This document shows, piece by piece, positions 46,726 to 55,335 of a DNA stretch of 63,193 nt. A model generated the notes under the pieces. That model was not told the origin of the DNA. It did no database searches and was given only the letters and a program-made list of their open reading frames with translations. The stretch covers positions 1-63,193 of the forward strand of contig JAUNEN010000011.1 of NCBI GenBank assembly GCA_030525525.1. Direction: 5' to 3'. Position 1 is the stretch's first letter; each line of letters begins with the position of its first letter. The DNA is from Erysipelotrichaceae bacterium. Its GTDB lineage: Bacteria > Bacillota_I > Bacilli_A > Erysipelotrichales > Erysipelotrichaceae. Made by a program: the position numbers and the translations under genes.

Positions 46726-46760
46726 AAAAAGCGGAAGGCTTCAATGGTCTTCCGCTTTCA
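46726..46760. terminator. Bidirectional terminator between esterase and apbE genes
   Basis: AAAGCGGAAG (46729-46738) pairs with CTTCCGCTTT (46750-46759). A and T runs flank both sides. Confidence 0.88.
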
Positions 46761-47888
46761 TCTTGCAAATGTGATCAGATCCCTGATTCCGTCTGTGTAA
46801 ACACAATGGTAATCACCTGAATCATGACCTTCTTCATTCTGTGTTCTGTCACTGTCCATGATCCAGACTGCTTCGGCGCTGTTTCCGGTTTTTTCCGTAT
46901 ATTCTTCAAGGACTTTCTTTCCGTCTTCAATGCTTAGAGTAAACAATGTTGTGGAAAGACAGTCAGCTGCCGAAGAGTCGGGAGTGATGATGGAAACACT
47001 GTGGTAGTAATCGGCCGGCTTCAATGTTTTCGGGTCGATGATGTGGTGATATTTCTTTCCGTCTTCACCGGTATAGTAGCGTTCGTAGTCGCCGCTGGTG
47101 ACAAATGAGCCGCTTCCTTTCATTGTGACCGTGCAGTAGATGCTTGAACCGTCGGCAGGATCGGCGATTCCGATCACCCAGTCGCTGCCATCCGGTTTTG
47201 TACCGACAGTGCGGATGTTGCGGCCGGCATTGACGGTTGTGCAGATGACATCGGCATCTTCCATATACCTGCCGATCATCTCTGCTGCATATCCCTTTGC
47301 GATTCCGCCGACATCGAGTGAAACATGCGGATCGGTGATATAGACGGTGCTGTCTTCTTCATTGATGACGACCTTGTCCCATCCGCTGTAAACGGCAGCT
47401 TCTTTGAGCTCTTCATCGGTCGGTACGGGAGCGTTTTTGCCTTCGGCATTGAGTTCGATTCCCGCGTCCCGGTATTCATGCCATACTTTCAGCAAAGAGC
47501 CGATCGTGATGTCAAAGGCACCGCCCGAAATTTCATGGAAGCTTTTTGCTTCCCTGAGCATGTCGATGATGTCGGAGCTGACTTTCACCGGGGCTATCCC
47601 GGCATTGTCGTTGATCGTTTTGAGGTTATAGAGACCTTCATAATCGTTGTAAATGTCAAACTGATCGTTGCAGTTTCTGAACATATCCGTGCATGTTCTG
47701 AAATATGAATCCATCTGATCGTGGTCATAGCCGAATTCGATCAGCTGAAAGACAGTGTCAAATCCGGCATCCACGGAGATGTTGGTGTACTTTTCAGGTT
47801 CTTCTGTTTTTTCGGCGGGAACATTGTCTGCACATCCGCAAAAAAGCGAAAGGGCAAACACTCCCGCGAGTATTCTGTTTTTTCTCAT
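46758..47888 (-). CDS. apbE: FAD:protein FMN transferase ApbE (lipoprotein)
   Basis: 376-residue extracytoplasmic flavin transferase that attaches FMN covalently to Thr/Ser in proteins such as RnfD and RnfG. The signal peptide ends in lipobox LFCGC. ApbE marks: SGGAFDITIGSLLKVW, a DVGGIAKGYAAEMIGRYM helix, NAGRNIRTVG, and SFVTSGDYERYY followed by YHHIIDPKTLKP. ATG 47888 is chosen over the longer frame. It lies 7 bases after an extended -10, so it is probably leaderless. It is divergent from the rnf operon, whose subunits are its likely targets. Confidence 0.93.
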   Translation of the reverse strand: MRKNRILAGVFALSLFCGCADNVPAEKTEEPEKYTNISVDAGFDTVFQLIEFGYDHDQMDSYFRTCTDMFRNCNDQFDIYNDYEGLYNLKTINDNAGIAPVKVSSDIIDMLREAKSFHEISGGAFDITIGSLLKVWHEYRDAGIELNAEGKNAPVPTDEELKEAAVYSGWDKVVINEEDSTVYITDPHVSLDVGGIAKGYAAEMIGRYMEDADVICTTVNAGRNIRTVGTKPDGSDWVIGIADPADGSSIYCTVTMKGSGSFVTSGDYERYYTGEDGKKYHHIIDPKTLKPADYYHSVSIITPDSSAADCLSTTLFTLSIEDGKKVLEEYTEKTGNSAEAVWIMDSDRTQNEEGHDSGDYHCVYTDGIRDLITFAR

Positions 47889-47895
47889 AGACAGG

Positions 47896-47970
47896 AGTAT
47901 ATCATAAAAATGAAATACACTGCTTCCGTGTTTGTATTTAGCGCACATTCATAATAAACGATGATATAAT
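47896..47970. promoter_or_regulatory. Divergent apbE/rnf promoter region
   Basis: Minus strand TGATATACT (47904-47896) ends 7 bases before the apbE ATG. Plus strand TGATATAAT (47962-47970) precedes rnfC by 38 bases. Both are extended -10 boxes. The 120-base gap (47889-48008) is therefore a shared control region. Confidence 0.65.
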
Positions 47971-48008: not shown

Positions 48009-49325
48009 ATGTCAATTCTTACAGGACCGATGAATCATCACCTGGACGGACATAAGGAATTAACCAAGCACAAGGATGTATTGAAAACAATTGATCCTGA
48101 TCAGGTTTTTATTCCTCTTGTAAACGGCAACGCGCCCTGCAACGCGCTTGTTTCCGTCGGTGACGAAGTAAAAGTCGGTACAAAAATTGCGGAAAGAAAT
48201 GATCATTTCTATGTTCCGCTGTTTTCACCTGTCTCCGGTACAGTGACAGGTGTTGAAAAGTTTATGACAGCCTCGATGGGCCAGGCTCAGCATCTGGTCA
48301 TCCAGAATGATCATAAACATGAAGCAGTACGTGCATTTGCGCCGTTTGATTATGAAACGGCAAGCTGGGAAGAACTTCTCGATTTCGTCAGGAATTCCGG
48401 TATGGTCGGACTTGGCGGAGCAGGCTTCCCGACCTATGTCAAATATCTCAAACCGGAAAATGTCGAACTGTTTGTCGTCAATGCAGTTGAATGCGAACCG
48501 TATCTGACAGCCGATTATAAGAATATCGAAGAAAATATCGGACTCCTCAAAACCGGTACGCTCGCTCTCTTCAAGCTTTCCAAGGCAGCCAAAGGATGCG
48601 TTGCCATCAAGGAAGATAAAGTTGAACAGATCGAAGAGCTGAAGAAGGCATTCGCAGGAACACCGATCGAAATCAGAACCGTTCCCGATCTCTATCCGAT
48701 GGGCTGGGAAAGAACACTGGTCTATCAGCTGACAAAGAAGAGATATGACAAACTTCCGATTGAGGCCGGATGCATTCTCAACAATGCATCAACAGCGATT
48801 GCACTCGGTAATGCGATTGATAACGGCATGCCGATCACTCACAAGTATGTGACGGTTTCCGGTGATGCACTGAACAATCCGCAGAACGTATATGTTCCGG
48901 TCGGAACACGTGCAAGCGTGATCATCGATGCGGTCGGCGGCTATAAAGAGGGAACAGAAAATGTTCTTCTGATTGCCGGCGGACCGATGATGGGCAAAGC
49001 AATCCCGAACGATAAGTTTGTCATCATGCCGCAAAGCAACGGCTTAACTGTTCTCAACAACAAGCCGAAGGAAGAGGTCAAGTGCCTGCGCTGCGGGCGC
49101 TGCACAGAGACATGCCCGAGCGGACTTCAGCCTGTCCGTATCGCGATGAGCGCGGCAATCTTCGATGAAGAAGAAATCATGAAGCTTTCAGTCATGGACT
49201 GCATCGAGTGCGGTATGTGCACATGGATCTGTCCTTCCAAGATTGATGTCACCGAAAATGTCAGAAGAGCGAAGAATTTCGTCAGAACCAGAATGGCGAT
49301 CAGGGCAAAGGAGGCAAAGAAATAA
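48009..49325 (+). CDS. rnfC: Rnf electron transport complex subunit C
   Basis: 438-residue cytoplasmic NADH-oxidising subunit with FMN and two [4Fe-4S] clusters. Sites: nucleotide/FMN region GMVGLGGAGFPTYVKY and NAVECEPYLTADYK; clusters CLRCGRCTETCPSGL (about 357-370) and CIECGMCTWICPSK (about 396-409). Residues 1-80 form the barrel-sandwich domain. First gene of the rnf operon; the stop overlaps the rnfD start by one base. Length is normal. Confidence 0.96.
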   Translation: MSILTGPMNHHLDGHKELTKHKDVLKTIDPDQVFIPLVNGNAPCNALVSVGDEVKVGTKIAERNDHFYVPLFSPVSGTVTGVEKFMTASMGQAQHLVIQNDHKHEAVRAFAPFDYETASWEELLDFVRNSGMVGLGGAGFPTYVKYLKPENVELFVVNAVECEPYLTADYKNIEENIGLLKTGTLALFKLSKAAKGCVAIKEDKVEQIEELKKAFAGTPIEIRTVPDLYPMGWERTLVYQLTKKRYDKLPIEAGCILNNASTAIALGNAIDNGMPITHKYVTVSGDALNNPQNVYVPVGTRASVIIDAVGGYKEGTENVLLIAGGPMMGKAIPNDKFVIMPQSNGLTVLNNKPKEEVKCLRCGRCTETCPSGLQPVRIAMSAAIFDEEEIMKLSVMDCIECGMCTWICPSKIDVTENVRRAKNFVRTRMAIRAKEAKK

Positions 49326-50797
49326 TGAAATTTACATATAAGCCTTCACCCAACTACCGCAACACGCAGTCAACCGGCGGGATCATGTTCGATCTCACCA
49401 TGTGCTTATGTGCAGTGGTTCTGTTCTCGGCAGTTTATTACAGCATTGCCTATGGCTTTGCATACGGTCTCAGAGTCATTCTGATGACACTTGTTTCATT
49501 GATTGCGGCAATCGGTACCGAAGCAGTTTACTTCAGGATGCGCGGCCGTGAAGTGAAGAAGGAAATTCTTCATTCCTACGGCTGGGTTACCGCTCTCATT
49601 CTCACACTCATCACACGTCTTGATGTCAGCTATTATGCACTGTTTGTCGGCACGGTCGTTGCGATCATCATCGGCAAGCTCGTCTTCGGCGGTTTCGGTC
49701 AGAATATCTTCAACCCGGCCGCATTCGGCGAAGCGCTGATCATGAACAGCTTTTCGGCAAGCAAGAGCGCACAGGTAACAGCAGATGTCTTCTCCGGTGC
49801 CACTCCGATGGCTGCGATGAATTCCAATAACTGGATTCTCTCATCCAGTGCAATGGGCAACTTCATCAAGGGCTTCGGCGGCTGGGGCGGACTGCTTGTC
49901 GGCTCATATCCGAGCGTCATCGGCGGCAGCTGCGCACTGCTGATTCTCTTGTGCGGAGTATATCTCTTATGGAGAAAAGATATTGACTGGCATCTGTCAG
50001 TAACATATCTCATCACCGTCTTCTGCGTTTCACTTGTTGTCGGTCTCATCAAAGGCGCCGGCATCAACTATGCAATCTTCAATGTCATCAGCGGCGGCGT
50101 TCTCTTCGGAACAGTCTTCATGATGACCGACCCGGTCACCACACCGATCACGATTCCCGGCCGTATGGTCTTCGCAGTCGGTTGTGCTGCACTGACACTG
50201 ATTCTCAGATGGAAATCCAATCTTCCGGATGGCGTTCTGTTCTCAATCCTGTTAATGAATATGCTGACACCGGCAATCGACAAGCTGGTCGACGGCAACC
50301 AGATCAAGAACCAGGTACAGATCCGCCGCAAGGTTGTCTATACTTCAATCGTTGTCATCCTGGCAGCGCTTGGCGTCGGTATGACTCTTGACAAGGTCGC
50401 TGCCGAAACACCGGCATCTTCCGATGCGGCTGCTGAAACAAGCGAGCCGGCAGGAATGGCACTGGAAGACTTCAGTGCAAATGAAGCGGGCTGCCGAGTC
50501 TACAGCAATGTCGATGACACAGCTTATGTCTATCACTGCTCGGCAAAGGGCTTTGAAGGCACAAACAAGGCAACAATCACAGTTGATGCAACAAAGGGAA
50601 CAATCACTTCCGTCGAAGTGACTGACTTCGGCGACACAACAGGCGTCGGCGATGCAGCAACAACAGCCGATGAGCTGAAGCGTTATGAAAATGCGACAAT
50701 CAACTCATCGATTGATGCAACGGCAGGTGCAACTTACACAAGCGCATCCATCAGAGCCATGGCAGCCAAAGCGCTGAATATGGCCGCCGGAAAGTGA
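49325..50797 (+). CDS. rnfD: Rnf subunit D with C-terminal extra domain
   Basis: 490 residues; ordinary RnfD is about 310-350. Residues 1-350 are the polytopic NqrB/RnfD part. It has the FMN attachment motif SGAT at Thr160 (DVFSGATPMAAMN). After a Ser/Ala/Glu linker (about 362-377), residues 378-490 form an extra outward-facing domain with an ANEAGCRVY start and a DATAGATYTSASIRAM end. Thr470 lies where FMN-bind domains carry flavin. The domain matches domain 3 of RnfG at about 74 of 110 positions by hand alignment. There is no frameshift and the reading frame is intact. Confidence 0.9.
   Translation: MKFTYKPSPNYRNTQSTGGIMFDLTMCLCAVVLFSAVYYSIAYGFAYGLRVILMTLVSLIAAIGTEAVYFRMRGREVKKEILHSYGWVTALILTLITRLDVSYYALFVGTVVAIIIGKLVFGGFGQNIFNPAAFGEALIMNSFSASKSAQVTADVFSGATPMAAMNSNNWILSSSAMGNFIKGFGGWGGLLVGSYPSVIGGSCALLILLCGVYLLWRKDIDWHLSVTYLITVFCVSLVVGLIKGAGINYAIFNVISGGVLFGTVFMMTDPVTTPITIPGRMVFAVGCAALTLILRWKSNLPDGVLFSILLMNMLTPAIDKLVDGNQIKNQVQIRRKVVYTSIVVILAALGVGMTLDKVAAETPASSDAAAETSEPAGMALEDFSANEAGCRVYSNVDDTAYVYHCSAKGFEGTNKATITVDATKGTITSVEVTDFGDTTGVGDAATTADELKRYENATINSSIDATAGATYTSASIRAMAAKALNMAAGK
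50456..50797 (+). repeat. Extra FMN-bind-like domain unit 1 (in rnfD)
   Basis: Encodes RnfD residues 378-490. It is the first of three homologous coding units, the others being in rnfG at about 51414-51707 and 51780-52112. Shared landmarks are a Cys in NEAGC, a second Cys in YHCSAKGFEGTNKA, GVGDAATTADEL, and a DATAGATYTSASIRAMAA end. Confidence 0.85.
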
Positions 50798-50810
50798 GGA
50801 GGGTATGAAG

Positions 50811-52112
50811 ATGGGAAAATTAGATCATAACTCTGCTCTCTATAAAGCAATTCTGCTCGGCGTTCTCTGCGCAGTATGCGGACTTCTGCTGTCGGTCGCA
50901 AATGCGATCACGGCTCCGATCATTGCCGAGAATGCATTGGCAACTATCAAAGCAAGCCTGGAAGAAATCTATCCGGGTGCGACATTCAACGATGTCACGG
51001 ACAAGCTGATCGAAAAGGATGAGACAGGTCTGGTTGACGGTATCTATGAAGCAGAAGGTAAGGGATATGTCTTCACACTCCATGGCGTCGGCTACAACTC
51101 CAACGGATTCACCTTCATGGTCGGCTTCGACAATGACGGAAAGATTTCCGGATATACCGCACTCGAACAGCAGGAAACAAGCGGTATCGGTTCCCGTGCA
51201 TTCGATGATGAATATGTCAGCACAATCACTTCACTCACATCCGCCGATCCGATTCCTCTGCTCTCCGGTGCAACTCTGACATCAACAGCTGTTCAGAATG
51301 GCATCGATGCAGCCAAGGCAATCTTCAACGATGTGCAGGGAATCTCCTATGATCCCAACGCTCAGGCGGAAGTGCCTGAACAGCAGCCGTTCGGCAATGA
51401 AGATTACTCCAAGACAGATGTGACCTGCACGGAAGTCAGCAATGACGGCACAACAGCTGTTTACCACTGCACAGCCAAGGGCTTTGAAGGAACAAATGAA
51501 GCGGATGTTGAAATTGACCTTTCCACAGGCACAATCAAGTCCATCAAAGTTACAGCCTTCAATGACACTCCGGGCGTTGGCGACACAGCAACAGCGGATG
51601 CTGAACTGGCACGCTATGCAGGCAAGGGCTTAAGCGATGTGGTTGACTCAACAACCGGCGCAAGCTTCACAAGCCTTTCCTTAAGAGCGATGGCAGCCAA
51701 TGCACTTTCCGCCGCAACCGGTACTGAACTGGCCGGCGGCAGTGCTCCTGAAGCCGGCAGCGGAAGCGGACTTGGCAGTGAGGACTTCACAGCCAATGAA
51801 GCAGGATGCATCGTCTATACAAACCTTGATGATACTGCAGTTGAATACAAGTGCAGCGCCAAGGGCTATCAGGGAATAAACAAAGCGATTGTCACCGTTG
51901 ATACTACAAAGGGAACAGTCACCAATATCGAAATCACAGAATTCAATGACACTCCGGGTGTCGGCGATGCGGCAACAGCGGATACAGAGCTTGAACGCTA
52001 CAAGGGTGCAAGCCTTGAATCATCAGTTGATGCGACAACATCAGCGACATTCACCAGTGCTTCAATCCGTGCGATGATTGCGGCTGCCCTGAATATGGCA
52101 GCAGGCAGGTAA
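50811..52112 (+). CDS. rnfG: Rnf subunit G with three FMN-bind-like domains
   Basis: 433 residues from ATG 50811 (GGAGG 8 bases upstream; ATG 50805 is too close). Ordinary RnfG has about 190-220. One N-terminal membrane helix, then the usual FMN-bind domain ending in LLSGATLTS with Thr155 as likely FMN site. Two more domains follow: residues about 202-298, ending in DSTTGASFTS (Ser285), and about 324-433, ending in DATTSATFTS (Thr413), separated by a Gly/Ser linker. All face outside, reachable by ApbE. The first site is canonical; the two extra motifs are degenerate, so flavinylation there is a prediction. Confidence 0.9.
   Translation: MGKLDHNSALYKAILLGVLCAVCGLLLSVANAITAPIIAENALATIKASLEEIYPGATFNDVTDKLIEKDETGLVDGIYEAEGKGYVFTLHGVGYNSNGFTFMVGFDNDGKISGYTALEQQETSGIGSRAFDDEYVSTITSLTSADPIPLLSGATLTSTAVQNGIDAAKAIFNDVQGISYDPNAQAEVPEQQPFGNEDYSKTDVTCTEVSNDGTTAVYHCTAKGFEGTNEADVEIDLSTGTIKSIKVTAFNDTPGVGDTATADAELARYAGKGLSDVVDSTTGASFTSLSLRAMAANALSAATGTELAGGSAPEAGSGSGLGSEDFTANEAGCIVYTNLDDTAVEYKCSAKGYQGINKAIVTVDTTKGTVTNIEITEFNDTPGVGDAATADTELERYKGASLESSVDATTSATFTSASIRAMIAAALNMAAGR
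51414..51707 (+). repeat. Extra FMN-bind-like domain unit 2 (in rnfG)
   Basis: Homologous unit with DVTCTEVSNDGTTAVYHCTAKG, a second block GVGDTATADAEL, and the end DSTTGASFTSLSLRAMAA. It is the most diverged of the three copies. Confidence 0.8.
51780..52112 (+). repeat. Extra FMN-bind-like domain unit 3 (in rnfG)
   Basis: It aligns without gaps over 110 residues to the RnfD copy (about 67 percent identity by hand count), including EDFTANEAGC, VDTTKGTVTN and the shared end TSASIRAM...ALNMAAG. The two are near-duplicates. Confidence 0.85.
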
Positions 52113-52124
52113 GAGGAGGACCTT

Positions 52125-52784
52125 ATGAGCGAAAAGAAAGAAAAGAAACAGAGTCTGTTTACCAGGCTGTTAGTTGAAAACCCTGTCTTCGGTCTGTATC
52201 TGGGTATCTGCTCGGCACTGGCAATCACAACCAACATCAACAATGCGATCGGTATGGGAATTGCCGTTACGATCGTATTGACACTGTCCAATATTCTCGT
52301 TTCATCGATCAGAAACCTGACACCGAATGACATTCACATTCCGGTATATATCGTCATCATCGCAACGCTTGTTACAATCGTCGGCATGGTGATTCAGGCA
52401 TATACACCTTCGCTGTATTCGGCACTCGGCGCGTTCATCGACCTGATCGTTGTCAACTGCATTATCCTGGGAAGAGCGGAAGCATTCGCTTCCATGAATC
52501 CGATCGGTCCTTCCATCCTTGACGGTCTGACCATGGGATTCTCCTATACACTCAGTATCCTGACAATGTCTTTCTTCAGACAGATCCTCGGTACAGGTGT
52601 TCTCTCACTTTCCAATCCGTTTACAAATGCGGAGATCTTCTCACTGAGACTGATCCCGGAAGGATTTGAACTTCCTTTCTTCAAAGAACAGTTCGGCGCA
52701 TTCATCACATTCGCATGTCTGGCAGCTGCTGTTTCCGCATACAAGACACATGTTGAAAATAAGGAGAAGAGTGCTGAATTATGA
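52125..52784 (+). CDS. rnfE: Rnf subunit E
   Basis: 219-residue membrane subunit, six helices. With RnfA it forms the inner membrane electron channel that holds a [2Fe-2S] centre between half-sites. The two cysteines are visible in LGICSALAITTN and IVVNCIILGRAEAFAS. GGAGG precedes ATG. The stop overlaps the rnfA start (ATGA). Confidence 0.95.
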   Translation: MSEKKEKKQSLFTRLLVENPVFGLYLGICSALAITTNINNAIGMGIAVTIVLTLSNILVSSIRNLTPNDIHIPVYIVIIATLVTIVGMVIQAYTPSLYSALGAFIDLIVVNCIILGRAEAFASMNPIGPSILDGLTMGFSYTLSILTMSFFRQILGTGVLSLSNPFTNAEIFSLRLIPEGFELPFFKEQFGAFITFACLAAAVSAYKTHVENKEKSAEL

Positions 52785-53353
52785 ACCTGTTTACATTGTT
52801 CATCAGCGCAATGCTGATCAATAACATTATTCTTTCCAAATTCATCGGCATGTGCCCGTTCATGGGTGTTTCCACAAAGATGGAATCTGCCGTCGGTATG
52901 GGTCTTGCGGTTATCTTCGTTGTCTTCTGTGCTTCGGTTCTGTCGTACGGTCTCTACTATGCGGTTCTTGAACCGTTGCATCTGGAATACATGAAGCTGA
53001 TCTGCTTCATCCTCGTCATTGCGGCATTCGTTCAGTTTGTCGAACTGTTCATCAAAAAGAACAGTCCGTCCCTGTATAAGCAGCTGGGTATCTATCTGCC
53101 TCTGATCACAACAAACTGTGCAGTTCTCTACGTCGCTCTCGACAACATCACACAGGAATACTCCCTGATTGAAACAATCGTCAACTCAATCGGTGTTCCG
53201 GCCGGATTCATGCTGATGCTGTGCATCTTCTCAACCATCCGTGAACGCTTAAGAGGAAACGATGTTCCCGAAGCATTCCAGGGAAATCCGATCGCATTCA
53301 TTATCGCTGCAATTATGGCTCTTGCTTTCTCGTCACTTGCGGGATTGGTATAA
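52781..53353 (+). CDS. rnfA: Rnf subunit A
   Basis: 190-residue membrane subunit, related to RnfE but with inverted orientation. Cluster cysteines are in KFIGMCPFMGVST and LITTNCAVLYVAL. Start LFISAMLINNIILSKF is typical. Normal length. Followed 3 bases later by a small Cys-rich membrane gene. Confidence 0.95.
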   Translation: MNLFTLFISAMLINNIILSKFIGMCPFMGVSTKMESAVGMGLAVIFVVFCASVLSYGLYYAVLEPLHLEYMKLICFILVIAAFVQFVELFIKKNSPSLYKQLGIYLPLITTNCAVLYVALDNITQEYSLIETIVNSIGVPAGFMLMLCIFSTIRERLRGNDVPEAFQGNPIAFIIAAIMALAFSSLAGLV

Positions 53354-53356
53354 GCC

Positions 53357-53554
53357 ATGCAGACGATCGTTGCAATTCTGATTGTACTGGTCCTGGTCGG
53401 ACTGAACGGTTTTCTCTACATCCGGAACAGACAGACGCCTGTTCCGGAAGGATGTGAAAATCTGAAGCCGGATTGTGCCGCATGCGGTATCGGGGACTGT
53501 GCACTCAGAGCAAAGTTTATGGAAATGAAAGAGGAAGAACATGGAGATCATTAA
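53357..53554 (+). CDS. Small Cys-rich membrane protein between rnfA and rnfB
   Basis: 65 residues. One N-terminal membrane helix (IVAILIVLVLVGLNGFLYI), then Cys33, Cys40, Cys43, Cys48 in EGCENLKPDCAACGIGDCALR and an acidic tail. The C-x2-C-x4-C spacing is the same as in the RnfB cluster domain (48-51-56). It could ligate an iron-sulfur cluster on the cytoplasmic side. No family is recognised with certainty. No good Shine-Dalgarno, so translation is likely coupled to rnfA. It overlaps rnfB by 14 bases. Confidence 0.75.
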   Translation: MQTIVAILIVLVLVGLNGFLYIRNRQTPVPEGCENLKPDCAACGIGDCALRAKFMEMKEEEHGDH

Positions 53555-53822
53555 AGCAGTATTATTGATGCTTGTTCTCGGTGCAGTGATCGGTATTCTT
53601 CTCGGAATTGCGAGTGTCAAGCTCTATGTCGAAGAAGATCACAGAGTCGAGGATGTTCTGGCAATGCTGCCGGGATACAACTGCGGCGGATGCGGAAACC
53701 CCGGATGTGCCGGTATGGCTGCCAAGCTTGTTGAAGGCGAAAGCACAATCGACAAGTGCAAGCCCTGCAAGGCTGATGCAAAGGCAGCTATCGTTGCTTA
53801 TCTGAAAGAGCACGCTGCATAA
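53541..53822 (+). CDS. rnfB: Short RnfB (membrane helix plus cluster domain only)
   Basis: 93 residues. A membrane helix (about 5-27) is followed by the RnfB-type four-cysteine domain CGGCGNPGCAGMAAKL (Cys48, 51, 56) with Cys73 in DKCKPC. Usual RnfB proteins have 170-450 residues because of two or more ferredoxin-like [4Fe-4S] pairs after this domain; they are missing. The region after the stop carries a terminator, and no other frame continues the gene, so it is not a simple frameshift. It would need a partner for ferredoxin docking. Confidence 0.85.
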   Translation: MEIIKAVLLMLVLGAVIGILLGIASVKLYVEEDHRVEDVLAMLPGYNCGGCGNPGCAGMAAKLVEGESTIDKCKPCKADAKAAIVAYLKEHAA

Positions 53823-53834
53823 AGAATCTGATGA

Positions 53835-53879
53835 AAAGATGGCGAGGAGGCTGAATCCGAAACCATCTTTTTTTCTTTC
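53835..53879 (+). terminator. Terminator of the rnf operon
   Basis: AAGATGG (53837-53843) pairs with CCATCTT (53864-53870), then TTTTTCTTTC. Confidence 0.8.
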
Positions 53880-53997
53880 TGAAATTGTTTCACGGAAATA
53901 TACAAAGTGTGGGATAATGGAAAACGTCCGCTGTCGGAAAATGAAACTCATAGATCATTTTTTCTTCCCTGAAGCAGCGGTCTCAAGGAGATTTTTT

Positions 53998-55335
53998 ATG
54001 AAGAAGAGAGAACGGCTCGGCAGCAGGCTGGGTTTTATTATGCTGTCTGCAGGATGTGCAATCGGATGCGGCAATGTCTGGAAATTCCCGTGGATGTGCG
54101 GGGAATACGGCGGCGGCAGCTTCATGGTGATGTACTTCCTGTTTCTTCTGATCCTCGGCTTGCCGGTACTGACGATGGAGTTTTCGGTAGGCAGAGCTGC
54201 TCAGAGCAGTCCGGTTCACATGTATCAGAAGCTGCAGAAACCGGGAGGAAAATGGGGACTGTTCGGCTATGTCTGCCTGCTTGGCAACATTGCCCTGATG
54301 GCATTCTATTGTGTCGTATCCGGCTGGATTCTTTACTACTTTTATAAATTCGCAGTCGGAGATACTGCTTCGCTTGGATTTGTATCCATGATTCAGAATC
54401 CGAAAATCAATGTGATTTCACTCTTCATCACCGTTGCGGCAGCATTCATCATTCTCAGCTTCAATCTGCAAAGCGGGCTGGAGAGGATTACGAAAGTCAT
54501 GATGATCACGCTGATGATTCTGATGTGCGTTCTTGCCGTGCACAGCCTCAGCCTGCCCGGTGCGAAGGAAGGACTGAAGTTCTATCTGGTTCCCGATTTC
54601 TCCAAAATCAGTCTGAAAACAGCAGTCGGCGCCATGAACCAGGCATTCTTCACGCTTTCCGTCGGCATGGGTTCCATGGCAATATTCGGCAGCTATATTG
54701 ACAAGAAATGCAGGCTCACAACCGAAGCGCTCAATGTCATTCTGCTTGATACGATGGTTGCGGTGATTGCCGGACTGATCATGTTTCCGGCATGCTTCAC
54801 ATATGGCGTGGAAGTGAATTCCGGACCGAGCCTTCTGTTTGATACCATGGCAACCGTTTTTGGCAATATGGCGATGGGCAGATGGTGGGGCATGCTGTTC
54901 TTCCTCTTCATGGTGTTTGCGGCAATGTCAACTGTACTGGGTGTCTGTGAGAACATCCTTGCGATGGTCAGAGAGATGACCGGCTGGGACAGACCGAAGG
55001 GCTGTATCGTCTGCGCAGTGATGATATTTACGCTCGGCTTAACGACGGCACTTGGCTTCAGCGTGATTCATTTCGAACCGTTTGCGCCGGGCAGCTCATG
55101 GCTTGATTTCTGGGATTTCATTGTTTCAACCAATATTCTTCCGCTCGGCTCATTATTGCTTGCACTGTTCTGCTGCAATGATGCCGGATGGGGCTGGGAT
55201 CATTTTGTAACCGAAGCAAATGAAGGAAAGGGAATGAAGGTGAAGGAATGGATGAAACCGCTGTTTCGCTGTGTTGTTCCGATTGTCATCGCATTTGTTT
55301 ATATATATGGTCTCTTCACCTTCAAGTGGCATTGA
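53998..55335 (+). CDS. Sodium-dependent NSS-family (SNF) transporter
   Basis: 445-residue Na+-coupled amino acid or amine importer. Marks: RLGFIMLSAGCAIGCGNVWKFPW (the unwound helix 1 and sodium site), YGGGSFMVMYF, GLPVLTMEFSVG, and a later MNQAFFTLSVGMGSMAIFGSY. The 11-helix layout, shorter than 12-helix neurotransmitter carriers, is usual in bacteria. ATG 53998 follows TCAAGGAGA; the longer frame from 53839 overlaps the rnf terminator. The substrate cannot be assigned. Confidence 0.93.
   Translation: MKKRERLGSRLGFIMLSAGCAIGCGNVWKFPWMCGEYGGGSFMVMYFLFLLILGLPVLTMEFSVGRAAQSSPVHMYQKLQKPGGKWGLFGYVCLLGNIALMAFYCVVSGWILYYFYKFAVGDTASLGFVSMIQNPKINVISLFITVAAAFIILSFNLQSGLERITKVMMITLMILMCVLAVHSLSLPGAKEGLKFYLVPDFSKISLKTAVGAMNQAFFTLSVGMGSMAIFGSYIDKKCRLTTEALNVILLDTMVAVIAGLIMFPACFTYGVEVNSGPSLLFDTMATVFGNMAMGRWWGMLFFLFMVFAAMSTVLGVCENILAMVREMTGWDRPKGCIVCAVMIFTLGLTTALGFSVIHFEPFAPGSSWLDFWDFIVSTNILPLGSLLLALFCCNDAGWGWDHFVTEANEGKGMKVKEWMKPLFRCVVPIVIAFVYIYGLFTFKWH

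Follow-up and report, generated by a model that had tools for sequence, protein, structure and literature searches.

Structures of the Rnf complex were found for A. woodii (9eri), Clostridium tetanomorphum (7zc6) and Azotobacter vinelandii (8ahx). These canonical complexes are built from RnfA, B, C, D, E and G, and all of them contain a multi-cluster RnfB, on whose arm the models dock ferredoxin. In A. woodii, residues 30-100 of RnfB form the mobile B8 shuttle domain, which inserts between RnfA and RnfE, and ferredoxin docking is placed near B1-B2 (PMC11889175). The Na+-NQR resembles Rnf in its core membrane machinery and in its tethered Fe-S shuttle domain, which feeds the D/E cluster. It is accompanied by the gene for a small membrane-bound helper, NqrM; according to a review (PMC12174285), NQR seems to need this protein for its equivalent intramembrane [2Fe-2S] cluster.

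The locus described here lies in a window of 63,193 nucleotides, the whole stretch of DNA that was analysed, from the draft genome of an Erysipelotrichaceae bacterium (GCA_030525525.1, contig JAUNEN010000011.1). It holds a complete, tightly packed rnf operon on the + strand, in which all six Rnf subunit genes (RnfABCDGE) are present in the order rnfCDGEA, small gene, rnfB:

46758..47948, - strand: ApbE flavin transferase, upstream of the rnf operon and divergent from it (PF02424, E 7.1e-69)
48009..49325, + strand: rnfC, 438 aa, NADH/FMN subunit (TIGR01945, 364 bits over cut-off)
49325..50797, + strand: rnfD, 490 aa (PF03116, E 1.1e-71), with an extra C-terminal FMN_bind domain (PF04205, E 1.7e-10)
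50805..52112, + strand: rnfG, 435 aa, with three FMN_bind domains (PF04205, three stretches, E 4.8e-32)
52125..52784, + strand: rnfE, 219 aa, membrane subunit with AE1 [2Fe-2S] ligands C29 and C112 (PF02508)
52781..53353, + strand: rnfA, 190 aa, membrane subunit with AE1 ligands C25 and C113 (TIGR01943, 242.9 bits)
53357..53554, + strand: small Cys-rich single-helix membrane protein, 65 aa (conserved slot between rnfA and rnfB; dN/dS about 0.1; model)
53541..53822, + strand: short rnfB, 93 aa, transmembrane helix plus one [4Fe-4S]-type FeS domain (PF04060)
about 53833..53873, + strand: probable intrinsic terminator closing the operon, a long-loop hairpin followed by a T tract (RNA fold)

The small gene starts with an ATG 3 nt downstream of the rnfA stop codon and overlaps rnfB by 14 nt. 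The terminator that had been placed after rnfB is present as a T-tailed hairpin with a minimum free energy of -17.2 kcal/mol and a modest z-score of -1.86; since the simple terminator scan allows loops of at most 8, this hairpin is absent from its list. Directly 3' of rnfB (53839-55335) lies a sodium:neurotransmitter-symporter family gene (PF00209), whose product might draw on a sodium gradient made by Rnf.

Much of the canonical complex is recognisable in this operon: the AE1 cysteines, the RnfC clusters (two Fer4 motifs, CxxCxxCxxxCP, at residues 359 and 398), the flavinylation motifs, and the RnfB helix with its first FeS domain. RnfD carries an SGAT motif at residue 157, and everything predicted from sequence to be needed for flavinylation of RnfD and RnfG is present (SGAT motifs, PF04205 domains and ApbE), with the ApbE product expected to perform this modification. 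In contrast to the canonical complexes, RnfB has neither the docking arm nor any of the 2-7 additional [4Fe-4S] clusters, a small membrane protein is encoded as well, and RnfD and RnfG carry extra FMN_bind domains. Such a putatively multi-flavinylated Rnf (49325-52112) might also feed extracytosolic acceptors. The locus also differs from Na+-NQR: an NqrF reductase gene in place of RnfB was looked for in the operon and none was found, RnfC keeps its Fer4 motifs along with the FMN domain, and homology to NqrM is not detectable here.

The first-pass annotation had described RnfB as a transmembrane helix followed by one four-Cys domain (48-51-56-73), with no ferredoxin domains. This description holds. 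The open reading frame matches PF04060 only (E 1.4e-13, 50.7 bits against a gathering score of 23), a search of the 93-aa protein for Fer4 domains returned none, and it has no C-terminal polyferredoxin, i.e., at least two further 4Fe-4S clusters. All four cysteines are invariant in 20 aligned sequences. Comparison with the nearest relative (L002) gives a dN of 0.082 and a dS of 0.96 for rnfB (dN/dS 0.085), while the small gene gives a dN of 0.087 and a dS of 0.92 against the same relative, indicating that both genes are under strong purifying selection at the protein level and that the 65-aa gene is real. With 61.7 bits, RnfB stays below the cut-off of the RnfB model TIGR01944 (68.7) and can hence escape automatic naming; since no family model matches the small gene above threshold, automatic annotation may call such operons incomplete.

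AlphaFold predicts a complete compact fold for the short RnfB, with a pLDDT of 93.6 and a closing C-terminal helix. In Foldseek, A. woodii RnfB (9eri_B) ranks first, with a probability of 1.00, 44% identity and an E of 2.3e-3. The next match is the [4Fe-4S] domain found in corrinoid Fe-S proteins, with an rmsd of 1.1 A across 51 columns. Aligned with the solved RnfBs (7zc6, 9eri, 8ahx), the short protein covers their N-terminal 80-90 residues. The part that is kept thus matches the flexible B8 shuttle domain, while the polyferredoxin input arm, including the B1-B2 region of A. woodii, is gone, in agreement with the earlier proposal that the complex would lack the usual ferredoxin-docking arm. 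The AE1 ligands on the receiving side are retained: RnfA C25 and C113 are both present in 100/100 short-RnfB and 67/67 long-RnfB operons, and in the short-RnfB operons RnfE C112 is found in 100/100 and C29 in 93/100, the other seven being alignment gaps. With the B8-like domain and the AE1 ligands kept and the docking part missing, the last step of electron input appears intact and the first one gone.

A shortened gene in a draft genome with 4.3% estimated contamination could in principle stem from an assembly error, a frameshift or a contaminating contig. We reject this explanation, as the same gene pair is found in more than 100 independent genomes and also in the isolate Holdemanella biformis DSM 3989. 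The annotation had itself argued against a frameshift, and named as refuting findings full-length RnfB in relatives or a small ORF that is not conserved. The relatives carry the same pair instead: it is present in the genomes of the same genus that were read and have a close RnfB, and in 11 genomes of another family in the order. Other genomes of the order, including two of the same genus, have an RnfB of 260-298 aa and no small gene in the operon.

What the annotation understated is the scale. Of 392 sampled genomes of the Bacillota, taken in the narrow GTDB sense, 121 have the short form (median 98 aa), which is a widespread property of a whole Rnf clade, nearly always together with the small Cys-rich membrane protein. 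Its conservation extends over dozens of species, far more than chance would allow. By profile, the small gene is found in 115 of the 121 short-RnfB genomes versus 3 of the 271 others (hand cross-tabulation), and the earlier view of it as a new partner holds. The three matches without a short RnfB are G267 plus two weak hits whose frames contain stops. Of the remaining six short-RnfB genomes, five encode at this position a helix-plus-Cys ORF that is shortened or divergent, and in G172 none is recognisable.

Linkage within the operon follows the same pattern. When a collection of named genomes was scanned with the RnfB alignment, the small gene lay between rnfA and rnfB in 11/11 short-RnfB operons and in no long-RnfB operon. 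Among 167 pooled operons, 80 combine a short RnfB with the small gene, 18 have a short RnfB and no small gene in the operon, 67 have a long RnfB without it, none has a long RnfB with it, and 2 are unclear. Of these 18, 10 come from families that carry the gene elsewhere, four are secondary operons in genus g58, three have degenerate versions, and the last is that of G172. Where it is unlinked, the gene lies between aspS or tcdA and comEB (families f20, f21 and f24) or between phosphoglucomutase and uracil-DNA glycosylase (f25), with neighbours named by eye. That it was kept alongside the short RnfB after relocation speaks for a function common to both. As the short clade represents a single lineage, co-occurrence within it does not amount to many independent tests; the association is strong nonetheless, and the link rests partly on this relocation with retention and on the absence of the gene from Rnf-less genomes. 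G031, of the same genus as the window genome, has an orphan small gene (L232:10940-11290), and the only RnfB found there is long. Its operon groups with those of Lachnospiraceae, which points to horizontal replacement.

Several short-RnfB operons show further peculiarities. In family f11 (L084-L086; genomes of 0.8-0.9 Mb), no rnfG was recognised in the rnf operons, RnfD is about 480 aa long, and a very short helix-plus-Cys ORF occupies the slot before rnfB. In L087, L093 and L097 (families f20, f21 and f25), ~1-1.7 kb separate rnfD from the rnf gene recognised after it, which suggests an extra gene.

The phylogeny of the membrane subunits separates the two forms. On a tree of RnfE+RnfA from 163 operons, a single branch divides the 97 short-RnfB operons from the 66 long-RnfB operons. 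The split needs one change (SH-aLRT 96), and 0/500 shuffles matched this low number. Those Erysipelotrichales operons that have a long RnfB are placed among the ones of Lachnospiraceae. When RnfE served as the outgroup for RnfA, the RnfA clade of the short form received a support of 98, the deep nodes were without resolution, and on the RnfE side the short/long label needed three changes; the rooting therefore gives no direction as to whether the short form is ancestral or derived. Given that long RnfB is spread over many phyla, it would be simpler to assume that the polyferredoxin arm was lost. Two proteins might be intermediates between short and long forms: a 187-aa RnfB in G417 (L100:3625-4188) and a 183-aa RnfB frame in G274, each with two tandem PF04060-like FeS stretches.

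The missing arm raises the question of the electron donor. The idea of a split RnfB finds no counterpart in the data: Fer4 proteins other than RnfC were sought in these operons and none was found, with one exception (L113). The genome does encode a stand-alone 56-aa 2[4Fe-4S] ferredoxin, the kind of protein for which the annotation had proposed a search, together with a 1192-aa PFOR-like frame, two further POR-type proteins and HydAB-type hydrogenase genes. With no replacement Fer4 protein in the operon and a ferredoxin in the genome, direct reduction of RnfB by ferredoxin would be the simplest route. In the proposed mechanism, the short RnfB would consist of nothing but the membrane-tethered swinging [4Fe-4S] shuttle domain, the element that in canonical Rnf feeds the RnfA/E [2Fe-2S] cluster. 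PFOR and similar enzymes would reduce a soluble 2[4Fe-4S] ferredoxin, which would dock directly on this domain, and electrons would then pass, in either direction, along the usual route RnfB - RnfA/E - RnfG - RnfD - RnfC - NAD+. This Rnf type would have the 65-aa membrane protein as its dedicated partner. The [4Fe-4S] domain of the corrinoid Fe-S protein (CFeSP, CODH/ACS gamma) offers a parallel, having the same fold as the soluble domain of the short RnfB and a single cluster. Corrinoid Fe-S proteins are reduced by external low-potential donors. Unlike the short RnfB, CFeSP has no membrane helix and is part of a soluble methyltransferase partner. We consider it probable, with room for doubt, that these operons represent a distinct Bacillota Rnf clade in which ferredoxin directly reduces a single-cluster RnfB, with the small protein as a dedicated partner of Rnf.

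The FMN_bind domains allow for another interpretation, in which the complex no longer oxidises ferredoxin, electrons come mainly from NADH via RnfC and reach extracytosolic acceptors through the extra flavinylated domains, and RnfB is a remnant. The extra FMN_bind domain of RnfD and the three of RnfG fit such a role, as does the proposal that multi-flavinylated RnfG feeds alternative extracytosolic acceptors (PMC8238504). A remnant would hardly be expected to keep all four RnfB cysteines and the AE1 ligands, or to evolve at the dN/dS given above; many short-RnfB operons have an RnfG of ordinary size (e.g., L138, 169 aa), and ferredoxin, PFOR and hydrogenase are all present in the genome. We therefore regard this interpretation as improbable and retain direct reduction of RnfB by ferredoxin.

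The small protein consists of a helix (residues 2-26), a conserved NxxTPxPEGC segment and the core C40-x2-C43-x4-C48. AlphaFold gives a confident helix only, with low confidence for the Cys tail; the helix is followed by positive residues, which presumably place the C-terminal side in the cytoplasm. The four cysteines reported earlier (Cys33, 40, 43 and 48) are invariant in 26 aligned sequences, but the set of four does not extend to the whole family: outside Erysipelotrichales the first one is often missing, leaving the three-Cys C-x2-C-x4-C as conserved core. The observation that this spacing equals that of RnfB generalises well, being exact in 139 of 148 distinct homologues; 126 of the 148 have the upstream fourth Cys and 22 do not.

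In profile comparisons, the small protein matches the RnfB N-terminus with 86-91% probability over the transmembrane helix and C-x2-C-x4-C, versus 9% when the soluble part is reversed. A comparison with the FeoB_associated proteins gives 91%, but over 15 columns only. These are single pairwise comparisons of short Cys-rich proteins and only suggestive, and the same applies to the earlier idea of a duplicated cluster carrier, which the RnfB match favours to that extent. We rejected membership of the FeoB-associated family. Both kinds of protein have a single N-terminal helix, a short Cys-rich tail and weak profile similarity, but the Cys spacing differs, the NxxTPxPEGC motif occurs only in the small protein, and the window protein scores 10.3 bits against PF12669 (gathering 27), the best of 26 members reaching an E of 2.6e-4. 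The gene lies in rnf operons or by aspS/comEB or pgm/udg rather than next to feoB, and a separate true PF12669 member is encoded in the same genome. A search by sequence for a distant solved structure found none.

Two roles for the small protein have to be weighed. It may be an assembly factor, NqrM-like in function, supplying RnfA/E or RnfB with iron or a cluster and staying outside the mature pump, a reading we hold to be plausible at somewhat under even chances. It shares the architecture of small membrane-bound Fe-S maturation proteins, and the role of NqrM in NQR provides a parallel. Variation of its cysteines is tolerated, the weak relation to PF12669 points in the same direction, and in G155 and G083 free copies coexist with three rnf operons. 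On the other hand, none of 26 members has a Pfam match to NqrM (PF04400), and a need limited to the short-RnfB clade is left without explanation, as long-RnfB operons have no such gene. Genome scans for NqrM were also empty, but their positive controls gave no signal, so that absence from those genomes is not implied.

Alternatively, the protein might be a seventh redox subunit, whose Fe-S cluster, held by C-x2-C-x4-C and an upstream or partner ligand, would relay electrons from ferredoxin to the single RnfB cluster in place of the polyferredoxin arm; a duplication of the RnfB N-terminus may have been its origin. We see this as a possibility of roughly one in three. The shared core spacing and the profile match with its reversed control speak for it, together with the location mostly between rnfA and rnfB and the absence from long-RnfB operons. 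The loss of the upstream Cys in 22/148 homologues and the even more degenerate versions in some short-RnfB genomes fit it poorly, unlinked genes in several families are unusual for an obligate structural subunit, and the motif match could be convergent. Sequence alone cannot decide, and we lean slightly towards assembly. A separate Rnf class across Bacillota, with a minimal RnfB shuttle and a membrane-anchored cluster protein as seventh redox subunit, is rated as rather unlikely; if it were true, the small protein of that class would replace the polyferredoxin arm in electron input.

For the short-RnfB branch, the textbook picture of electron entry into Rnf fails: a whole Bacillota clade, including tiny reduced genomes, has an Rnf without the polyferredoxin arm. 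No published description of a short or truncated RnfB, or of Rnf in these taxa, was found in the open-licence papers searched, and the short-RnfB Rnf with its small partner constitutes a new form of a known pump. The minimal requirement for ferredoxin input becomes directly testable, a stripped-down Rnf is available for structure work, and the small conserved protein may shed light on the assembly of the iron-sulphur centres of Rnf.

The genomes G083 and G155 (genus g58) have three rnf-like operons each, one of which holds the small gene, and one or two free copies of it; the secondary operons combine a short RnfB with no small gene of their own. One of these in G155 (L112:10990-16460) is an rnf-like DGEAB set with a short RnfB and no rnfC, directly downstream of cydAB-like (cytochrome bd) genes as judged by eye, and is possibly a quinone-linked Rnf variant. 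A further rnf operon in the two genomes (L110:839-6750 and L113:4820-10618) encodes an oversized RnfG of 633-669 aa and a short RnfB, without its own small gene, and in L113 an additional Fer4-containing gene adjoins this secondary operon.
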